Shown piece after piece: positions 1,581 through 52,553 of a stretch of DNA of 52,553 nt. Positions within the stretch are counted from its first letter, which is position 1; every line of letters starts with the position of its first letter. Below the pieces are notes generated by a model that saw only the letters and a list, made by a program, of their open reading frames with translations, did not search any database and was not told where the DNA came from. The position numbers were made by a program, and so were the translations under genes. Source of the DNA: Candidatus Heimdallarchaeota archaeon (GTDB lineage Archaea > Asgardarchaeota > Heimdallarchaeia > Heimdallarchaeales > Heimdallarchaeaceae); the NCBI GenBank assembly GCA_023136245.1, contig JAGLRO010000017.1:1-52553 (forward strand). The letters run 5' to 3'.

Positions 1581-4067
1581 ATGAATGAAAATTCACCACC
1601 TCCATACTCAGAACCAACAGAAGAAGATGAAGAGAAACTGAAGAAAGAGAAAAAAGAAAAAGAACTATATCCCCCAAAACCTCCTCGTCCTGTGGAACCT
1701 ACTCAACCGCCAACTGCTTCTATTCCAACTCCTCCACCACTACCAAAAGAAATCTCTCAACAAATAACAGATGATACAAGAACAGTTCATCCTCGTCCTC
1801 AATCTGTTGTTTTACCTGAGGAACAAAGAAGAACACCTCTCCCTTCACCTGTGGTAGTTCCAGAAGAAGAAAAGGAGACTAAGAGAAGATCATTTTTCTG
1901 GTGGGGATGTTTATTCTTCCTGCTTTGGAATATTACTCTTATGTTTCTCCTTGAAGCAACACTCCAACCTCGAAATAGCTTGGCAGCAGGTATTATTGCT
2001 TATTCTCTAGGACTTCTGGGTTTAGTAATTTTCTCGTTACTTGTTAACAACATAAAGAAAATTGCGATTGCTTTTCCAGTACTTCTTTTAATCGTATTTG
2101 GGTTGAGTATTCTTTTTCATGTTACAAATCTACCAGCATACAATCCTCTGTCTCCTCTATCTGAAAGAGCTTTTTTTGTTGTAGAATCCATAAAGAATAG
2201 TACAAATCTGTTTGGAACTGAGGGGATTATTTTTGGTAGCATAACCGTAGAAAATCTCGAACTATGGAGTTTAGCTGCTTATGCTGTTGATTTTATCATA
2301 ATACTTCTCATATTTATGGTAGGTTCTCTTTCACTCGTGTGGTTTATTAAACTAGTTACTTCCAAAAAAGAAATTTCAACATCTTTCTTAATTGTCTTGG
2401 CACTTGTATTATTTACAATTGGTTTAGTATTGTCACCCGTCATCCATTTGAGCTTGGCTGGTTTTATAGACTTTGGAGGGAATACATTAGTTGGAGCAAA
2501 TCATATAGCTGGGAGTGTTGAGATTATGGGAAGCTTTGGAAATGCTACCCAAGAAGATATAAACAGAGCATTAGAAAACTTCCTTCTAGCTGAAGAAAAC
2601 ATTAGAAATGCACGTAATAGTATCAATATGTTCTCATTTATATTTGGATTTATCAAAATCACTGAAATTTTACTACATTTTATGGATGCTTCACTCATTC
2701 TTTTAAGTGGGGTTGAACCACTGATTAACGGTTCATATCAGATTTTTCAGGGTTTCCAAGATGTTTCTGAATCTTTGAATCAAAGCGATACAAGCGAAAC
2801 ATTAGCTACTCAAGGATTTACTATTAAGAAAAGTGTAGTAAATGAAAGCTTGTTTCAAATCGGTGTAAATAAAGTCGAAGCAGGTTTAAATGAGCTTGGT
2901 TCTAGCATGAATTTACTTTATGAAGCGTTTGATGAAATCAATTTAGCAAATATATCTGATATCTACAGCTTTCTTGATAGACTCCCTTTTCAAACTGATG
3001 AAATTCAGCTATACATTGTAGATATAGAAGAATATATTCAGTCATTCTCCAAAGTACCAGGAGTTATAGAAATTTTGGTTGAGCACCCAATTAAGAATGA
3101 ATTACCTTCTCGTTATGCAACACTAACTCATTTCCTATATGGTGCTTATAATTTGATAAATGCTGCTGATTATATTAGCGATAATAGCGCTTACAATGGT
3201 ACAGCAGCTTTTTTTGATGATGCTAGATCCAACTTCAGTTTAGTTTCTGACCAATTAGCAAGAGATGAAGCACAACAAATGATTGGATCAGAAACAATCT
3301 TCTTCAATGAAACATTAAGTTTCATTTATGATATGACCAAAATATCAGCTAACATCAGTTCATATGGTTCTGACATAGGGGTTGTTTTTAGCGGTTTAAA
3401 TGATACACTTTCAAATTTCGATCAAGGATATGAAAATATTACTAGCTATCCAGAAATTAGTAATGAGCTTGATGGTCTGGTTAATCTTTCCGAAAGTTTA
3501 AACACCACTGCACATGAAATTGATTATGATATATCTTTAATGAAGATAAAATCAGAGAACGAAACTTATGGAGTTTTTAGTGAACCAAGTCAACAAATAG
3601 TATCTTCATTAGAAAAATTCGACTTAATAACTAATGCTGAGAATTCTTTCAATATTGCAAAAGCTCTCTTTCACCTTTTTAATTCAATGGGGCATTTGAA
3701 AGATATGCATGATAATATTATAATTGGCGAACAGCAGTTCGTAAATGATTCGTTATATGTTGAAGCTAATAACTCATTTATAATGGCAAATGTATCTCTA
3801 TACAGTTCTATGTCAGAAATGGATTCAGCTATTTCATATATGAATAAAACAGCAGAAGGAGACATGGTTCAACTTGAAGAAACCAGAACTATGTTTTTAG
3901 AAATAAAAAACACGTTAGAGAGCGTCATTATCTATTTCAACAACCTTCTATCACTTGCAAGTTTAGGCCCTGTAGCAAATCTTTCATATGTTTCTGGTAA
4001 TTCAACTTTAATTATAGACACTCTGTCAAATGTTAATAATCAACTATCAGATGTTATGGCTCAGTAG
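1581..4067 (+). CDS. Multi-pass membrane protein with long helical outer domain (paralogue 1)
   Basis: An 828-residue protein of no family I recognise. Residues 1-103 form a Pro/Glu/Lys-rich cytoplasmic tail with a PPPY motif at 6-9 and several PPxP runs. Five hydrophobic segments follow at about 105-125, 134-155, 160-180, 228-257 and 264-292. Residues 300-828 are soluble, predicted mostly helical, and rich in N-x-S/T sequons (NST, NLS, NKT and others), as expected for a glycosylated external domain. It is clearly paralogous to the next gene: shared positions include YNPLxPxSER after the third helix, P-x-IHL-x-x-AG-x-x-D-x-G after the fifth, and QIFQGF in the outer domain. Only this copy has the proline-rich tail. 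Function is unknown; a surface sensor, adhesin or structural membrane protein is possible. Confidence 0.85.
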   Translation: MNENSPPPYSEPTEEDEEKLKKEKKEKELYPPKPPRPVEPTQPPTASIPTPPPLPKEISQQITDDTRTVHPRPQSVVLPEEQRRTPLPSPVVVPEEEKETKRRSFFWWGCLFFLLWNITLMFLLEATLQPRNSLAAGIIAYSLGLLGLVIFSLLVNNIKKIAIAFPVLLLIVFGLSILFHVTNLPAYNPLSPLSERAFFVVESIKNSTNLFGTEGIIFGSITVENLELWSLAAYAVDFIIILLIFMVGSLSLVWFIKLVTSKKEISTSFLIVLALVLFTIGLVLSPVIHLSLAGFIDFGGNTLVGANHIAGSVEIMGSFGNATQEDINRALENFLLAEENIRNARNSINMFSFIFGFIKITEILLHFMDASLILLSGVEPLINGSYQIFQGFQDVSESLNQSDTSETLATQGFTIKKSVVNESLFQIGVNKVEAGLNELGSSMNLLYEAFDEINLANISDIYSFLDRLPFQTDEIQLYIVDIEEYIQSFSKVPGVIEILVEHPIKNELPSRYATLTHFLYGAYNLINAADYISDNSAYNGTAAFFDDARSNFSLVSDQLARDEAQQMIGSETIFFNETLSFIYDMTKISANISSYGSDIGVVFSGLNDTLSNFDQGYENITSYPEISNELDGLVNLSESLNTTAHEIDYDISLMKIKSENETYGVFSEPSQQIVSSLEKFDLITNAENSFNIAKALFHLFNSMGHLKDMHDNIIIGEQQFVNDSLYVEANNSFIMANVSLYSSMSEMDSAISYMNKTAEGDMVQLEETRTMFLEIKNTLESVIIYFNNLLSLASLGPVANLSYVSGNSTLIIDTLSNVNNQLSDVMAQ

Positions 4068-6617: not shown

Positions 6618-7847
6618 ATGAATCCATCAAATGTATTTTTAGCATACAATCATAGTAAAGGAGATTTTAGCGAATTAAGGGACCAAACAAAGTTTCAACA
6701 ATTATTAGATTCAGATACAGCTGAAATAAGCAATCGATTATCTGGATTAGATATTGATGGGATTTTAGTCTTTAATCATGATAAGAATGAGTGGCACCTC
6801 ATATTTAGCACACAGCTTGGGCTTGTTGCTCAAAGAACAGGGAGAAGACAAGCTGATACTATTAGTAGATCAGGATTTTTACTTGCTAGTGGAGAAAGAG
6901 TAGGAATAAAATGTAGGCTTGAGCAGATAACTGATGATAATATTGGTGATTTGTTTAAAACTGTTCAAGAAAAGTATATTGAAACAGATCTTGGGGGTTT
7001 TCAAGGAGATTCACGACAAGATTCATATCCTAAATCAGTCCAGTCACGAGTAGAAAGACCACCTGAAGATAAACCACTTCTTCCACCTCAAGAACAGGCA
7101 GTTGAACCTACTTCTGAGCTTGAACCTGAACCACAAACAATTGTCTTTACTGAGCCTGAGCCTGAAGTTGAACCTGAGGTTGTAGCTGAGCCTGAACCCA
7201 TAATTGAAGCAGAACTTGATGCAGTACTTGATCCTCAACCAATTGTAGATCCAACTCATGAACCAGCAATTGAAGCGATACCCGAAACACCATTTGAATC
7301 TAAACCTGAAATTGAGAAAGTCGTTGAAGAAGTCGTTGAAGAAGTTGTTGAAGAAGTTGTAGATAAGGTGGCAGTTGGTGTTGCAAAAGAATTAGGTGAT
7401 GTTACATTCGAAGGTGTTGTTAAAGAAGCTCTCGAAGAAAAAGCAGAGGAACTAATTGAGAAAGTCGTTGAAGACGTAATTGAAGAAGTCCTTGAAGAAG
7501 TCGAAGAAGAGTTAGAAGAAGCCATAGAAAAAGGAATGGATAAAGCTGAAGCCGTAGAGGAAATTGTAGAAGAAGTGATTGAAGAAATAATCGAAGAAGT
7601 TGCAGAAGCTGTTGAAGAAGTCGCAGAAGATGCAATAGAAGAAGCTGTAGAAGAAATAATCGAAGTAGTTTCTGAGGAAATAAGTAAGGATACCGCAGAA
7701 GAAATGGCTGAAGAAATTGTTGAAGATGTAGTTGGAGAATCTCTCGAAGATGTCATCAAAAAAGTGGTTGAAGAAAAAGTTGAAGAAATAACTGAAATTG
7801 TTGAAGACACTGTAGAAGAGGAACTTGAGAAAGATTCTGAAGATTAA
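6618..7847 (+). CDS. Acidic Glu/Val-rich repeat-helix protein with N-terminal globular domain
   Basis: A 409-residue protein in three parts. Residues 1-122 look like a folded alpha/beta domain (LDIDGILVFNHDKNEWHLIF is a clear pair of strands) that I cannot name. Residues 123-235 are a disordered linker rich in Pro and Glu with repeated EPEPE/EVEPE units. Residues 236-409 are an extremely acidic helix built from units such as VEEVVEEV and IEEIIEEV, with valine or isoleucine recurring every 3-4 positions, so one face is aliphatic and the other carries glutamates. This suggests a long amphipathic helix for self-assembly or membrane contact. The reading frame is intact through the low-complexity stretch. 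It follows the two membrane paralogues on the same strand but is separated by 133 bp with a terminator-like tract. Confidence 0.8.
   Translation: MNPSNVFLAYNHSKGDFSELRDQTKFQQLLDSDTAEISNRLSGLDIDGILVFNHDKNEWHLIFSTQLGLVAQRTGRRQADTISRSGFLLASGERVGIKCRLEQITDDNIGDLFKTVQEKYIETDLGGFQGDSRQDSYPKSVQSRVERPPEDKPLLPPQEQAVEPTSELEPEPQTIVFTEPEPEVEPEVVAEPEPIIEAELDAVLDPQPIVDPTHEPAIEAIPETPFESKPEIEKVVEEVVEEVVEEVVDKVAVGVAKELGDVTFEGVVKEALEEKAEELIEKVVEDVIEEVLEEVEEELEEAIEKGMDKAEAVEEIVEEVIEEIIEEVAEAVEEVAEDAIEEAVEEIIEVVSEEISKDTAEEMAEEIVEDVVGESLEDVIKKVVEEKVEEITEIVEDTVEEELEKDSED
7315..7830 (+). repeat. Low-complexity GAA/GTT-rich coding repeat
   Basis: Short imperfect repeats of the kind gttgaagaa run through this coding segment and encode the V/I-E-E units. 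Unit length is irregular, so this is not a simple microsatellite. Long spurious reading frames appear on the opposite strand because of it. Confidence 0.7.
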
Positions 7848-19296: not shown

Positions 19297-20238
19297 ATGA
19301 AGAAAATTCCCAAACCTTACAGTGTGATGATGGAAGAAATAAAGGACCGATTGAAAGGAAAAAACGGGATTAAGCGAGCTAGAGAGATACAACAACTACT
19401 GAAAGAGATTCCCTGGAGTGTTGGAGATTATAGAAGGATAAAGGATGGTCTGAGAAAGGAACTAAAAGAATTAGAGGTTATAGAACAAGCCAAGAAAGCT
19501 TCTCGAAGCAGAACTAAAACAAAGAAATCAACACCTCAGTTTGCCATTATTGGAGTAACAAATAGTGGAAAAAGTACACTGATCAACAATCTAACTGGGA
19601 CAGATATTCCCATTGGTTCCTATCCTTACACTACAATCGAACCTCAATACGGAGCACTAGAACATGACAAAATCAGCTTTCAGCTTGTAGAAATTCCTGC
19701 AATATACGAAGGATGTTGGGATGGTGATAAGTCAACTTTGGGTATGATTCACTCTGCAGATTGTCTTCTCATTGTAGGACGTTCTTTTGACGATTTCAAA
19801 ATAATACTGAAAGAATTGGAGACACAGAATATAGAATTAATTGGAAATCGTATGGATGATGGTTTTATTCAAACTATCCCCAGAAAAATTCCTGCATTCT
19901 TAATATATGATAAAAACACTGAAACTATGCCTTCTTCTCATTTGAAGAAGATTTCCTCAGAGGATTATGTTGAAATAAAACGAAACATGGTGGAAATGAT
20001 TAAACCTGTTCGAATATTTACAATGAATTCTTTTAATGAAATTCAAGAACAGCCGATAGTATTTTACAATGATCCAATAACAGTGAAAGATGTTATGCAA
20101 AGAGTTACAAAAAGTAAAATAGAGATTTTCAAAGATGCTATTTTGCTTGAAGGTGGTCCTAACGGAAGAAGAAAGAGAGTTGGCATAACATACGAACTTT
20201 CAGACAACGATGTGATACATTTAACATTTCAGAAATAG
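19297..20238 (+). CDS. DRG/Obg-family GTPase with degenerate G3, with TGS domain
   Basis: A 313-residue protein in DRG order: an N-terminal helical segment (1-80), a GTPase domain (about 85-220) and a C-terminal TGS domain (about 245-311, ending VGITYELSDNDVIHLTF). The P-loop GVTNSGKST and the switch I YTTIEPQYG are intact. The G3 motif, usually DLPG, is EIPA, so both the Asp and the Gly are replaced. G4 (normally NKxD) appears as YDKN. The protein may bind but poorly hydrolyse nucleotide, or use a different chemistry. DRG proteins associate with ribosomes; this is probably an additional paralogue rather than the main archaeal DRG, whose motifs are normally strict. Confidence 0.78.
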   Translation: MKKIPKPYSVMMEEIKDRLKGKNGIKRAREIQQLLKEIPWSVGDYRRIKDGLRKELKELEVIEQAKKASRSRTKTKKSTPQFAIIGVTNSGKSTLINNLTGTDIPIGSYPYTTIEPQYGALEHDKISFQLVEIPAIYEGCWDGDKSTLGMIHSADCLLIVGRSFDDFKIILKELETQNIELIGNRMDDGFIQTIPRKIPAFLIYDKNTETMPSSHLKKISSEDYVEIKRNMVEMIKPVRIFTMNSFNEIQEQPIVFYNDPITVKDVMQRVTKSKIEIFKDAILLEGGPNGRRKRVGITYELSDNDVIHLTFQK

Positions 20239-22356: not shown

Positions 22357-23037
22357 CTATTTCCAGAACTGCCATCTTTTCTTTTCTTGTTTTTTCTCTT
22401 TCTTACTAACAGTGCTTCTGAGTTCAATTACTCTATCTTTTATACCTAGCTTGAAAACCATACTACGAAAGCCTTCAGGTTCATTTTCTTCTTCGATAAT
22501 ATAAACCAATGGAGCGTATTTTCTCTCAACCTCGAGCATTCGTGATATTCTACCTGCTTCATACTTTTCTTTAACTTGACACTCTTTACCAATCCAAATG
22601 TAAAGGCTCTTTTGAGCATCAAGCACGAAGGCATCATCAGATTTGAAGTATTGATATTCAAGAGGTAAATCTATGATCTCTACTTCTCCTTTATCGTCTT
22701 CTCTTAGTTGAAGTAATCGCATATCTTTCTGGATTTTCTTATCAAAATGTTTTAGAAAGCCAGGAGTGTCACCCTCTACAACTTCAAAATCAATAATCTC
22801 TGTGAATTTAGCGGATTCTTCACCTTCCAAAACTGTTTTTATTTTCAAGTCTTGATTCTTCTTTTCTAAAGTCCTAGCCATCCAAGCACCAACGGCCTTG
22901 TCATCACAATAAGACTTAGATCCTAACCAAATCCACATTTCTGTGTCTGTTTCAATAACATACACATCACCATTAAGAAATTTGTAAGGCTCTTTTAGAG
23001 GTATTAGGTCCTTTCTTGAAACATGATATACCTTCAT
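22357..23037 (-). CDS. Two-domain gelsolin-like protein with basic aromatic tail
   Basis: A 226-residue protein with two gelsolin-type repeats. Domain 1 (about 12-98) has NGDVYVIETDTEMWIWLGSK, the usual strand pair with the G-D calcium site, and the long helix DDKAVGAWMARTLEKK. Domain 2 (about 120-196) repeats the pattern with SDDAFVLDAQKSLYIWIGK and helix EAGRISRMLEVER, ending EPEGFRSM, matching the P-x-x-F ends of gelsolin repeats. Residues 211-226 are Lys-rich and finish with the aromatic RWQFWK, possibly a membrane or actin contact. Two-domain gelsolins that sever or cap actin filaments have been described in Asgard archaea; by homology this protein would regulate actin in the cytoplasm. 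It is convergent with the aldo/keto reductase, stop to stop. Confidence 0.88.
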   Translation of the reverse strand: MKVYHVSRKDLIPLKEPYKFLNGDVYVIETDTEMWIWLGSKSYCDDKAVGAWMARTLEKKNQDLKIKTVLEGEESAKFTEIIDFEVVEGDTPGFLKHFDKKIQKDMRLLQLREDDKGEVEIIDLPLEYQYFKSDDAFVLDAQKSLYIWIGKECQVKEKYEAGRISRMLEVERKYAPLVYIIEEENEPEGFRSMVFKLGIKDRVIELRSTVSKKEKKQEKKRWQFWK

Positions 23038-48400: not shown

Positions 48401-48991
48401 ATGACTAACTTTATTCAGAATTCTATCCGCTCAATTCGTAGAAAACTAGGTTACCCAGAGGTTTCTATATTGATTATGGGAAATAACAACCCTGCAACTA
48501 GAAATCGTGTTCTCCTTCTAAGATCGAATACTTCTTTGCAAGAATTCATTATGGATGATTTACTCATTGATTTACCTTTCTCTGCCAAATTCAAGTTTAA
48601 ACCAAAGCAGTTTGTTCCATTCGAGGGTATCCTCTATCTTATTGATGCAACTGAAGAAGAAATGATTAAACATGAACGTAATTATTTCTGGGAAAAGATA
48701 GTTTGGGATACTGAAACAAAAAACCTTCCAATTGCAGTATGTGCTTACAATTCTAATCTTCAAGGAGCATTAACTAGAGGTGAATTAATAGAATATCTAT
48801 CATTGATTCGCCTTACTGATAGACTTTGGAAATTATTTGAGACTCCGGATGTTAATAATCTGATAGATGCTATGCGATGGATAAAACGAATAGTTCATAT
48901 GGGATATGTCAAGTCTTGGGAAGAAAAAGAAAAACTATTGGAAAAAGTAATAACAAAACAAGTTCAAATTGTTTCAGAAACTACAACATAA
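48401..48991 (+). CDS. Degenerate Arf-family GTPase (pseudo-GTPase)
   Basis: A 196-residue protein whose middle and end match the Arf/Arl fold: GILYLIDATEEE (76-87, strand 4), FWEKIV, NLPIAVCAYNSNLQGAL (108-124) and RGELIEYLSL (126-135), then LWKLFETPDVNNLIDAMRWI (142-161). That is the Arf pattern around G4, the helix after it, and G5 plus the final helix. The nucleotide-binding parts are lost. The P-loop GxxxxGK[ST] is MGNNNPATRN (26-35), no WDxGG (G3) is present, and the NKxD Lys and Asp are replaced (AYNSNL). GTP binding is therefore unlikely. It begins a same-strand run with AAA+, VWA and a further gene; the spacer to the AAA+ gene is 23 nt with a ribosome site aaagaggt. Confidence 0.7.
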   Translation: MTNFIQNSIRSIRRKLGYPEVSILIMGNNNPATRNRVLLLRSNTSLQEFIMDDLLIDLPFSAKFKFKPKQFVPFEGILYLIDATEEEMIKHERNYFWEKIVWDTETKNLPIAVCAYNSNLQGALTRGELIEYLSLIRLTDRLWKLFETPDVNNLIDAMRWIKRIVHMGYVKSWEEKEKLLEKVITKQVQIVSETTT

Positions 48992-49014: not shown

Positions 49015-50565
49015 ATGACACTCACAATTCAAAAATTAATGAAAGATGGATACTCAGGATTTTCTGTGCGTTCCATACTAATGAATCAAGATTTTCGTGC
49101 AAGAGTTTTAAACGATGTAAGTGTAAGAGGAAATCAAACAGGCAAAAATCTAGTGATGGACAAATTAGCTGTTGGAGGAAAAGTACTTCTGACAGGTCCA
49201 ACTGGAGAAGCTAAAACTCTGTTTGCTAGAATGCTTTTAGATCATATTGTAAGAGAGATTAACAATTCCAAGTATCATATTGAAGGATGCCCTTTTCTTG
49301 AAGACGCAGGTTACATGGTCGATGTTGTCAATCAATTTTCAGCAAATCCTTTTGCTGGGATTAGAGTTATGCAATCTCTTTGCCCCTACTGTAGACAAAA
49401 CATTGAGAATATACTATCCGAAGAAGGTAATCAAGTTCAACTTGACAACACAAACAGTGTCTTAGCTATTCCTCCAAAAGAGATTGTTAATCGCTTAGGA
49501 AAGCTTGGTGCTCAAAAAACCATTGTTAGAAGATCTCAATTAGATCCAAGAACAGATCCTGAAAGCCTTTCAATGTTACTAGCTGGAGTTGAAAATTTAG
49601 AAGAATTATTTGGTAAAGATACTTCTACAACATATGCAGCAACCTCACATAAAGTTGGGGTTCTTTCTCAAGGTTTTATCGTAGTTAACGAAATTCAAAG
49701 ACTACCATTAACACTACTTGAGTCCTTGATGGGTTTTCTTGAGGAACCAATGGTTATCAAATACAATATTCAAGGAGAACCAGTCTACATTGATGGAGCA
49801 GTTCTTTTCACTTCAAATGCTCCACTAACTGTGTTTGGGGAAGAAAGTCAACCAATCATCAATCGTATTCCAGAAGTTCTTTGGCCAGCTCGTTCAGTTG
49901 AGAGCAGGGAACAAATTATTAGAGATATGTTTCAAGAACAAATAGTTCTTTCCAGAAAGAAAATAACCGCAAATCCTTCAATGATCCAATTACATGAACT
50001 AGAAAAAGAGACAACTGATTTTGTAAGTCGTCTAGCTGTTGATTTTCTTGCTTTCCTAGGTAATAACTCACTTCCAGAATCCATGAAAACAAGAGGATTA
50101 AGGTCTGAAAGTCGCGTAGAAAGAAGTGACTTCTATGCAGGTCTTGATGAGATTCATGATCCACAAAGGAATCCCCACATAGATCTTCGAACCATGAATA
50201 ACATAATTGGAGAAACAGTTCTTCTTCAAACTAGAGAATCAGAAGTAGAAAGTATAAATGTAGTAACATTAGAAAAAATTAGAAAAACTATTGGTGCTTT
50301 TGATGTTCCTGTTTCAATGCTTAATGATGCTCTTCAACAAATTAAGATTCTCCTACGAACCTCAATAAAAGATTCAGAAGTTTCCATAAGCGTTCAAGAC
50401 ATTTCTGAAGATATTTCAAAAATGAAAGCATTAAGTGATGAAGAACTTATTCAATTAATAACTAGATTTGAAGGATTAGACAAATTCAAAGAGAATCTTC
50501 GAGCAAAAATTATTGATAAACTCAAATTATCTTATGAGCAATTATTAAAGATAGATTATATCTAG
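49015..50565 (+). CDS. MoxR/chelatase-like AAA+ ATPase with altered Walker B
   Basis: A 516-residue AAA+ protein. Walker A is GPTGEAKT (61-68), the MoxR-type GxxGxAKT. The Walker B region is GFIVVNEIQ (220-228): the usual Asp is Asn225, while Glu226 remains. Sensor 1 is LFTSNAP (N268), and Arg284 in INRIPEVLW is a candidate arginine finger. Cysteines C92, C123 and C126 (CPYC) suggest a zinc site, seen in some magnesium-chelatase relatives. The C-terminal part is long and helical. It pairs with the VWA gene 33 nt downstream, as MoxR/RavA, NorQ and BchI pair with VWA partners that recruit metals or fold targets. The Asn change could mean slow or no ATP hydrolysis. Confidence 0.85.
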   Translation: MTLTIQKLMKDGYSGFSVRSILMNQDFRARVLNDVSVRGNQTGKNLVMDKLAVGGKVLLTGPTGEAKTLFARMLLDHIVREINNSKYHIEGCPFLEDAGYMVDVVNQFSANPFAGIRVMQSLCPYCRQNIENILSEEGNQVQLDNTNSVLAIPPKEIVNRLGKLGAQKTIVRRSQLDPRTDPESLSMLLAGVENLEELFGKDTSTTYAATSHKVGVLSQGFIVVNEIQRLPLTLLESLMGFLEEPMVIKYNIQGEPVYIDGAVLFTSNAPLTVFGEESQPIINRIPEVLWPARSVESREQIIRDMFQEQIVLSRKKITANPSMIQLHELEKETTDFVSRLAVDFLAFLGNNSLPESMKTRGLRSESRVERSDFYAGLDEIHDPQRNPHIDLRTMNNIIGETVLLQTRESEVESINVVTLEKIRKTIGAFDVPVSMLNDALQQIKILLRTSIKDSEVSISVQDISEDISKMKALSDEELIQLITRFEGLDKFKENLRAKIIDKLKLSYEQLLKIDYI

Positions 50566-50598: not shown

Positions 50599-51984
50599 AT
50601 GCCCCATAGAATATTCTTCATAACGGAAACAGAATTCACTGATCCATTACAACATTATGGTGATGTTGAATTTATACTAGACTTTGAGGATGCAGCACAA
50701 GTATTGAGGTTGTGGAGAAATCCCCATCTAGGACGAAGTTCCCGTGAAGGGGCAGTCATTTCTCTTGCATCAAAAAATGCTGTTGCAATTGATAACATAC
50801 TCCAAAAGATAATGAATACTTTTCTTACAGCTGAGGAAGAAGAACGTCTATTAAATGAGCTAAAACTCCTCCGTTTTATTGGCGATCATATTTTACCAGA
50901 TGTATTAGAAAGAGTTAATCGTAATGAACTCCAAACAGTTGAAGATATTCTGCAATATATTCAAGAGCTTTTACGTGAGTTGAAATATGAAGGAACAATT
51001 GATATACAACAATTAGCTGAAAAACTAAATCAACTGAAAGATATCGTGGATATTGAAATTACGGATGCTTTTGGGAGAAAGAAAAGAATCTCTCGTGAAA
51101 ATGTAATGGATTTACTTGGTAGGATACTTGGTAGATACTTAATGAAACAGATTTCAGTAGCTCCAATAGATGAGGTTCAAAAAAGATTTAGTGGATCAAT
51201 TCGTCTTAAGGAAACTTACAAAAGTGCTGTTCTTAGGTCACAAATGATTCCACCTACCTCTGTAAAACAAGAAGATATTGTTAGAGTAAAGAAAGATCGT
51301 CGATCTTTGGTTTACCAAATAGTCGATATGAGTCAATCTATGAGTAAAACTGTTTTTGAAGGAAAAATGTCCAGACTAGACGGGGCATTGTTAACAAGCT
51401 TAAGTCTATACTATTATTTCAAAATGCTAAACAGAAGAAAAAGAAAACGGTATGATATGTTTAAACTCGCAGTTGTTCCTATTAGAAAAGGACCAACCGT
51501 AATCGATGATGATAAGAAGATGGAACATCTACTTCTTACAGCTGATGCTAAAGGTAAGACTTACATGGTTCAAAGTGTTCTTAAAGCAATAGAACATGCA
51601 AGAAAGCAACATCTAGATAAGAACATAGATGTGCAGTTAACAATAGTTACAGATGGTATGCCAAATGTACCTATTCGTCCGTTTGGTTTTAAAACAAGTA
51701 AGGGATTAAAAAGATACTTTGATGAGATAGAAACAAAGACTAAACCAGATACTATTGAATGTTTAATTCAATTAAATGGAATTTTTAGTAGCTTAAAGAA
51801 TGATCGATCAAGAAACTGGAACATATCTTATTTCTTGATGGGTACAGAAGCTTTACGAAAGAAGGAATTGTATAGTCATACTCAGAGAATGTTGAAAGGC
51901 ATCACAAAACCTATTCTCATTGATCCTGCTCAAATAAACAAATTGGGAGAACAGATACTCCGAGAGAGCATTCTATACGGGTGA
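50599..51984 (+). CDS. VWA-domain protein, partner of the AAA+ ATPase
   Basis: A 461-residue protein. Residues 1-230 are mostly helical and unrecognised. Residues 232-461 form a VWA domain. The MIDAS is complete: DMSQS (D243-S247), Thr321 in AKGKT and Asp352 in VTDGMPN. MIDAS domains hold a divalent metal that contacts a target's acidic residue. In BchD, NorD, ViaA and CoxE the VWA protein delivers targets to the partner AAA+ ring, so the same is inferred here. A strong ribosome site aaggag precedes the ATG by 9 nt, and the following gene starts 6 nt after the stop. Confidence 0.88.
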   Translation: MPHRIFFITETEFTDPLQHYGDVEFILDFEDAAQVLRLWRNPHLGRSSREGAVISLASKNAVAIDNILQKIMNTFLTAEEEERLLNELKLLRFIGDHILPDVLERVNRNELQTVEDILQYIQELLRELKYEGTIDIQQLAEKLNQLKDIVDIEITDAFGRKKRISRENVMDLLGRILGRYLMKQISVAPIDEVQKRFSGSIRLKETYKSAVLRSQMIPPTSVKQEDIVRVKKDRRSLVYQIVDMSQSMSKTVFEGKMSRLDGALLTSLSLYYYFKMLNRRKRKRYDMFKLAVVPIRKGPTVIDDDKKMEHLLLTADAKGKTYMVQSVLKAIEHARKQHLDKNIDVQLTIVTDGMPNVPIRPFGFKTSKGLKRYFDEIETKTKPDTIECLIQLNGIFSSLKNDRSRNWNISYFLMGTEALRKKELYSHTQRMLKGITKPILIDPAQINKLGEQILRESILYG

Positions 51985-51990
51985 TAAAAA

Positions 51991-52553
51991 ATGTTAAAAG
52001 CTGAACTAACAGAAGTGATAGGGGTTTATCACAAAGCTCGTGATGATATCAAGACTCTTGTAGGTTCAACCCCGGAAAATTACAGAATACTGATTTTTGT
52101 TAATCCTGAAATGCATGTTTCTGTTAATCGTGTTGTTGAAATGACTGGTACTCCTCAAGCCATTCTTACTTCTGAGCAAATTACAAATCTGAAATCGGCT
52201 CGAATCAGTGATTTCCTCCCTACAGGAAAAGAAACTGTTTATAATTCACTTCCAACTTTAATCTATCTTTCTGTACCTTCCTATGAGCTTTCTAAAGAAC
52301 AAGAATTTACATTAAGAGTCATGCTCGTTCATGCATTAGCTCATGCACTAATGAATGAAAAAACTGAATCTAATTCAGCAAGAACACTATCCCAATTGTA
52401 TCAATTGGATGTTATATTAAAGGAATTGATGACTAACAATGTTTTCAAATTAAACAGAACATCAAATAATCAGCATGTTTGGGCATGGCAGTATTTTCAA
52501 GATTTAATTGGTATTATACGGTTATTCTCTGAATCAGGTGTAGAAGATTTTTA
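51991..52553 (+). CDS. Fourth gene of the AAA+/VWA cluster, partial, unknown
   Basis: An ATG 6 nt after the VWA stop opens a frame that runs through the window end (187 codons visible). The visible part begins MLKAELTEVIGVYHKARDD and includes a strand IFVNPEMHVSVNRVVEM. A helix with VMLVHALAHALMNE carries an H-x3-H pair, which could hold a metal but is not a classical HExxH. I do not recognise a family. Tight spacing implies co-transcription and a role with the AAA+ and VWA proteins. Confidence 0.72.
   Translation, partial: MLKAELTEVIGVYHKARDDIKTLVGSTPENYRILIFVNPEMHVSVNRVVEMTGTPQAILTSEQITNLKSARISDFLPTGKETVYNSLPTLIYLSVPSYELSKEQEFTLRVMLVHALAHALMNEKTESNSARTLSQLYQLDVILKELMTNNVFKLNRTSNNQHVWAWQYFQDLIGIIRLFSESGVEDF

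Follow-up and report, generated by a model that had tools for sequence, protein, structure and literature searches.

A conserved Arf-like pseudo-GTPase encoded with a MoxR-like AAA+ ATPase and a VWA-domain protein in Heimdallarchaeal genomes

Asgard archaea have a family of Arf-related proteins, the ArfRs, from which, according to passages of PMC12554972, the eukaryotic Arfs derive. The locus studied here raises the question of what becomes of such a protein when it keeps the look of an Arf and none of its nucleotide-binding motifs: a gene in decay, or a component with a function of its own. We analyzed computationally a contig of 52,553 nucleotides from a Candidatus Heimdallarchaeota archaeon (JAGLRO010000017.1, here called the window), in which a first-pass annotation had quoted several strings as Arf-like. 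All of these strings are present in a single open reading frame, whose product we call the pseudo-Arf (Table 1). The interval originally assigned to it (48476 to 48760) does fall on the middle of the gene but spans residues 26 to 120 only, so that the first 25 residues and the very "final helix" that had been named (about residues 153 to 167) lie outside it. Elsewhere on the contig, Gelsolin repeats are encoded at 22357 to 23037 on the minus strand (Pfam, 1.3e-12) and a long Glu/Val-rich low-complexity protein at 6618 to 7847 on the plus strand; the Ser/Thr-rich frame opposite the latter (7256 to 7810, minus strand) is probably a compositional artefact.

Table 1. Features of the pseudo-Arf gene and its downstream neighbors, in window coordinates
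Feature	Position	Strand	Details
Pseudo-Arf gene	48401..48991	+	196 aa, stop included; Pfam Arf match at residues 73-162; orthologues in 41 genomes
P-loop remnant	48479..48502	+	Residues 27-34, GNNNPATR; only the first G retained
G4-equivalent	48743..48769	+	Residues 115-123, AYNSNLQGA, from alignment to Arf chains; without Lys and Asp; Arf has ANKQDLPGA (as quoted in the first-pass annotation)
Most conserved block	48770..48829	+	Residues 124-143, LTRGELIEYLSLIRLTDRLW; equals Arf α4 to β6; E131, L135, and R137 in 29/29 rows
MoxR-like AAA+ ATPase	49015..50565	+	516 aa; Walker A GPTGEAKT, Walker B VVNEIQ, sensor 1 TSN
VWA-domain protein	50599..51984	+	461 aa; MIDAS DMSQS - T321 - D352
P506, start	51991..52553	+	~510-aa protein of no known family; cut by contig end

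Profile searches place the proposed resemblance to Arf beyond chance. The Pfam Arf model (PF00025) matches the window protein at 8.5e-6 with 25.8 bits, exceeding its curated cut-off of 22.3, and is matched at E ≤0.1 by 20 of the 25 members of the pseudo-Arf family; the best PDB match of the window protein is an Asgard Arf (8ouk, 1e-5). When a profile of the 25 members was run against PDB chains, Chlamydomonas Arl3 (5di3) came first at 4.8e-10, followed by Arf1, Arl1, Arf6, and Asgard Arf chains, and among the matches listed all were Arf-family or Asgard Arf proteins, fusions included. The match in sequence concerns the C-terminal half only, where LPIAVCAYNSNLQGALTRGELIEYLSLIRLTDRLWKLFE maps onto the Arf segment β5-α4-β6, the N-terminal half being too diverged for the Arf profile. 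A search of NCBIfam gave no match for the pseudo-Arf and none for the neighboring ATPase. Judged from its sequence, the identity of the gene as one that encodes an Arf-family pseudo-GTPase is well supported. A conserved N-terminal amphipathic helix was also considered as a family trait and found no support across the family, with a helical moment above that of shuffled sequences (at 0.05) in 2 of 15 members, the window protein among them (0.019); since the same holds for 0 of 6 active ArfRs, this test does not discriminate.

The pseudo-Arf was found in 41 of the 227 genomes of the phylum that we searched. They come from five families, four in the window's order and one elsewhere in its class (f1, 21; f2, 1; f3, 8; f4, 3; f6, 8); the f3 members L031 and L036 to L038, with 166 to 173 aa, rank among the shortest. 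This set comprises 38 strong orthologues, at 1e-40 or better, and three diverged ones from family f4, in which nine genomes were searched and three gave a match. The same class also includes families f5 and f7, for which the search of the 227 genomes gave no strong orthologue, and the four f5 matches examined are active Arfs. Twelve weaker profile matches (6.5e-14 or worse) were set apart, and six of them were examined: five were rejected as active GTPases with P-loop, D-x-x-GQ, and NKxD, and one is a diverged f4 pseudo-Arf. Across the species genome collection, a more restricted set of patterns, derived from f1 and f6, returned 27 loci, all of them from Candidatus Heimdallarchaeota or Asgard group archaeon entries.

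The loss of the nucleotide motifs, first noticed in this one protein, holds family-wide. None of the 41 orthologues has a G1 motif (GxxxxGK[ST]), even in the relaxed form G....[GA]K[ST]; the segment from residue 41 to residue 90 contains a DxxG in three, never as the Arf-type DxGGQ; [NT]Kx[DE] likewise occurs in three, always as TKxE, with NKxD in 0 of 41; and SA[KL] is left in one. The region from β1 to β4 also appears to be shorter than in Arf. Because G1, G3, G4, and G5 are all lost, the pseudo-Arf is most likely unable to bind GTP and would not switch, as far as sequence can tell. Two other GTPase genes may be recorded here. The window carries at 19297 to 20238 (plus strand) an MMR_HSR1-type GTPase (Pfam, 4.2e-16) with an intact P-loop, GVTNSGKST, with EIPA at G3, and with no visible NKxD, which makes it the second, partly degenerate GTPase of the contig. 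On sequence L096, an Arf-related gene (2401 to 3399, plus strand) with P-loop and NKxD and no evident DxxG lies directly 3′ of an Arf-type gene with intact motifs.

The pseudo-Arf gene is not decaying: its G motifs are absent and selection on it is maintained, the combination that marks a pseudo-GTPase. The median dN/dS, computed with our own Nei-Gojobori code for pairs within family f1, is 0.118 (70 of 190 pairs with dS between 0.02 and 1.5), which indicates purifying selection. What is conserved has a clear position in the protein. In the N-terminal half, the part that bears G1 to G3 in active Arfs, only 1 of 45 columns is conserved at ≥0.8 in 19 pseudo-Arf rows, compared to 15 of 66 columns among 16 rows of active Arf-type proteins, whereas the C-terminal half is as conserved as in the active proteins (12 of 91 compared to 13 of 93 columns). 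The invariant residues W97, E131, L135, and R137 lie in α3 and α4-β6, away from the lost nucleotide site. D140 and R141 are present in 26 of 29 rows and, since family f4 has lost both, are not essential everywhere.

The gene belongs to a five-gene block in the order pseudo-Arf, MoxR-like AAA+ ATPase, VWA protein, P506, and HEAT protein. In the window, 23 bases separate the pseudo-Arf from the ATPase gene, and it lies directly upstream of that gene in 32 of the 41 genomes; in two the contig ends, and in seven it lies elsewhere, with the ATPase accompanying it in each (f2, one; f3, three; f4, three). Two of the nonadjacent f3 genes are on other contigs and one is 1.8 kb away and divergent, and the three f4 genes sit about 6 kb beyond P506. 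The ATPase is present in 40 of the 227 genomes and P506 in the same 40. The first reading of the gene as part of a conserved cluster is borne out by the 39 genomes in which pseudo-Arf and ATPase occur together, the three mismatches all falling at contig ends (in G006 the start of the contig truncates the ATPase, and in G047 and G049 the pseudo-Arf is at a contig end); neither gene was found in G009 and G046, which are 86% and 64% complete. As these genomes share descent, the 39 co-occurrences represent few independent events; the joint presence even where the genes are not adjacent—in f2, part of f3, and f4—points to a shared function.

In the ATPase, Asn replaces the Walker B Asp in 14 of 14 aligned homologues, with the Walker B glutamate, Walker A, and sensor 1 kept. 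Its Pfam matches are Sigma54_activat (7 of 10) and AAA_5 (6 of 10), with no MoxR-specific model among them; the MoxR-like assignment is putative and follows from its VWA partner. The VWA protein, with a VWA_2 match in 6 of 10 homologues, has the MIDAS pattern DxSxS-T-D invariant in 10 of 10, and its profile finds only weak TRAP VWA matches in the PDB (0.0044). P506 gave one weak match there, to M protein, and in relatives it is followed by the HEAT-repeat gene (HEAT_2, 1.7e-6 in L044).

Continued selection on such a protein next to an AAA+ ATPase machine suggests that a switch protein has been reused as a fixed docking part. The role that we favor for the pseudo-Arf, with a modest degree of confidence, is that of a docking subunit that does not switch, within a MoxR/VWA remodeling machine. 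The Arf scaffold would be retained, above all in the half distant from the nucleotide site (β4-α3-β5-α4-β6-α5), with no GTP switching; the AAA+ ring would be the motor, with the VWA protein acting as adaptor to it; and the pseudo-Arf would offer its α3/α4-β6 face (W97, E131, R137, and in most members D140-R141) to the VWA protein or to the P506 and HEAT proteins. Both the physical complex and the partner that the pseudo-Arf would touch are inferred, and it is a guess that E131 or D140 might supply an acidic ligand to the metal site of the VWA protein. Ranked next, although unlikely, is that the pseudo-Arf is a client rather than a subunit, and that it is folded, loaded, or remodeled by the machine in the way that NorQD acts on nitric oxide reductase. 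MoxR/VWA pairs work on dedicated targets (according to passages of PMC9976466), the MIDAS is intact here, and the acidic E131 of the pseudo-Arf is invariant; against this, the pseudo-Arf shows no visible cofactor site or activity that would need to be matured.

It is improbable that nucleotide is still bound in a new way, by a loop remodeled downstream of G27 together with further contacts, and that the protein remains a switch. G27, the first glycine of the P-loop, is invariant in 29 of 29 aligned rows, the loop NPATRNR is conserved within f1, and some pseudo-GTPases do bind GTP (as passages of PMC10211241 describe). The rest of the P-loop is not kept, however, and the loop varies among families (A, T, or L at position 32; D, R, or N at position 34), with G3, G4, and G5 all absent and the N-terminal half poorly conserved.

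Predicted structures bear on whether that N-terminal half is Arf at all. The AlphaFold model of the window protein has a mean pLDDT of 50.1, and Foldseek returned mini-G proteins as its best rows (6e-3), Arf6 (3n5c) with a probability of 0.97, and no row below 0.001. Given the poor quality of this model, the case for the fold leans on the f6 homologue L077, whose model (mean pLDDT 55.8, ~70 across residues 57 to 160) is itself of low confidence and shows β1 and β4-α3-β5-α4-β6-α5. For L077, the best Foldseek row is the Asgard HodArfR1 (8ouk, 5.3e-5), the best 50 rows are Arf-family or Sar1 chains only, fusions included, and VIA aligns the model with an Arl13B chain at Z 11.4 and rmsd 3.1 over 138 residues. 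Foldseek and VIA both use this one weak model and thus provide support, not proof; as a check on the predicted fold, the retrieval of Arf-family structures leaves the originally proposed G domain unrefuted. It is rather improbable that the protein is instead a chimera, with an Arf-like C-terminal half joined to an unrelated N-terminal domain, and not a degenerate Arf: nearly all sequence matches do begin at about residue 61 to 76, and residues 1 to 53 of the L077 model have a pLDDT of <50, but a strand ending in G27 and then a helix sit at the position of Arf β1/P-loop/α1, and VIA aligns residues 6 to 160 of the L077 model to Arf chains.

The same cells also have other Arf-type proteins. PF00025 proteins above the cut-off are present in 22 of 22 distinct genomes searched, the window's own included, and occur also in genomes without the pseudo-Arf; a loss of active Arfs in family f3 was considered and dropped, as the best PF00025 matches examined there have intact motifs. 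That such company makes the pseudo-Arf a decoy, imitating or blocking the real Arf of its cell while the ATPase neighbors serve a separate function, is very improbable, because the loss took just those switch surfaces through which Arfs contact their effectors and because its presence tracks the ATPase module and not the Arfs.

As to origin, descent from active Asgard Arfs, which the first-pass annotation proposed to check, is favored by profile specificity and not decided by phylogeny. With hhalign, the pseudo-Arf profile scored 98.8% against 16 Arf-type sequences and 63.6% against four RasL-type sequences. In a tree of 39 rows and 100 columns, the pseudo-Arfs form one side of a branch (99/98), with all active Arf and RasL sequences opposite, and the test of a grouping of pseudo-Arf with Arf-type rows to the exclusion of RasL decided neither for nor against it (p-AU 0.21); the tree places no sister group beside them and so does not show an origin inside Arf. 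We speculate, with slightly more doubt than confidence, that an ancestor of these Heimdallarchaeal lineages took an Arf into an AAA+/VWA machine, where it became an obligate GTP-free subunit that lost its effector side and gained a new docking face at α3/α4-β6. If true, this would be an archaeal, noneukaryotic case of a small GTPase turned structural part. A pseudo-Arf conserved among Asgard archaea would demonstrate nonswitching uses of the Arf fold outside eukaryotes. Our searches of the open-licence PMC literature turned up no account of either an archaeal pseudo-Arf or this gene block. Since the set of partners is fixed, five recombinant proteins allow a direct test of the role of a GTPase scaffold in the absence of GTP.

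Compared to the Asgard ArfRs (8ouk, 8oul, 8oum, 8oun) and the eukaryotic Arf/Arl proteins, the pseudo-Arf is alike in the sequence and predicted fold of its C-terminal half and differs in that P-loop, DxGGQ, NKxD, and SAK are missing, the β1-β4 part is shorter, and the conserved residues have moved to α3 and α4-β6. CENP-M and the pseudo-GTPase domains of p190RhoGAP, all eukaryotic, belong to a different branch of the GTPase superfamily, and the pseudo-Arf is set apart from them by its archaeal host and its coupling to an AAA+/VWA block. What they share is being G-domain relatives without catalytic motifs: passages of PMC10211241 review CENP-M, Rnd1, Rnd3, and the p190RhoGAP domains as pseudo-GTPases, list CENP-M as a scaffold, and describe the N-terminal domain of p190RhoGAP as one that still binds nucleotide. 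On the side of the machine, the closest parallels are NorQ-NorD, RavA-ViaA, and CbbQ-CbbO, where likewise the gene after that of the AAA+ protein encodes a VWA protein whose MIDAS is intact (passages of PMC9976466). For NorQ/NorD, the same source describes a VWA MIDAS that is required for the target and that is proposed to engage an acidic patch of this target; the pair remodels the target (PMC13036017), and a VWA finger enters the AAA+ pore (PMC9976466 and PMC13036017). The ATPase described here differs from these pairs in that its profile matches no PDB chain at 0.001 and Asn stands for the Walker B Asp, and its block differs in the extra genes that it includes, those of the pseudo-Arf, P506, and the HEAT protein.
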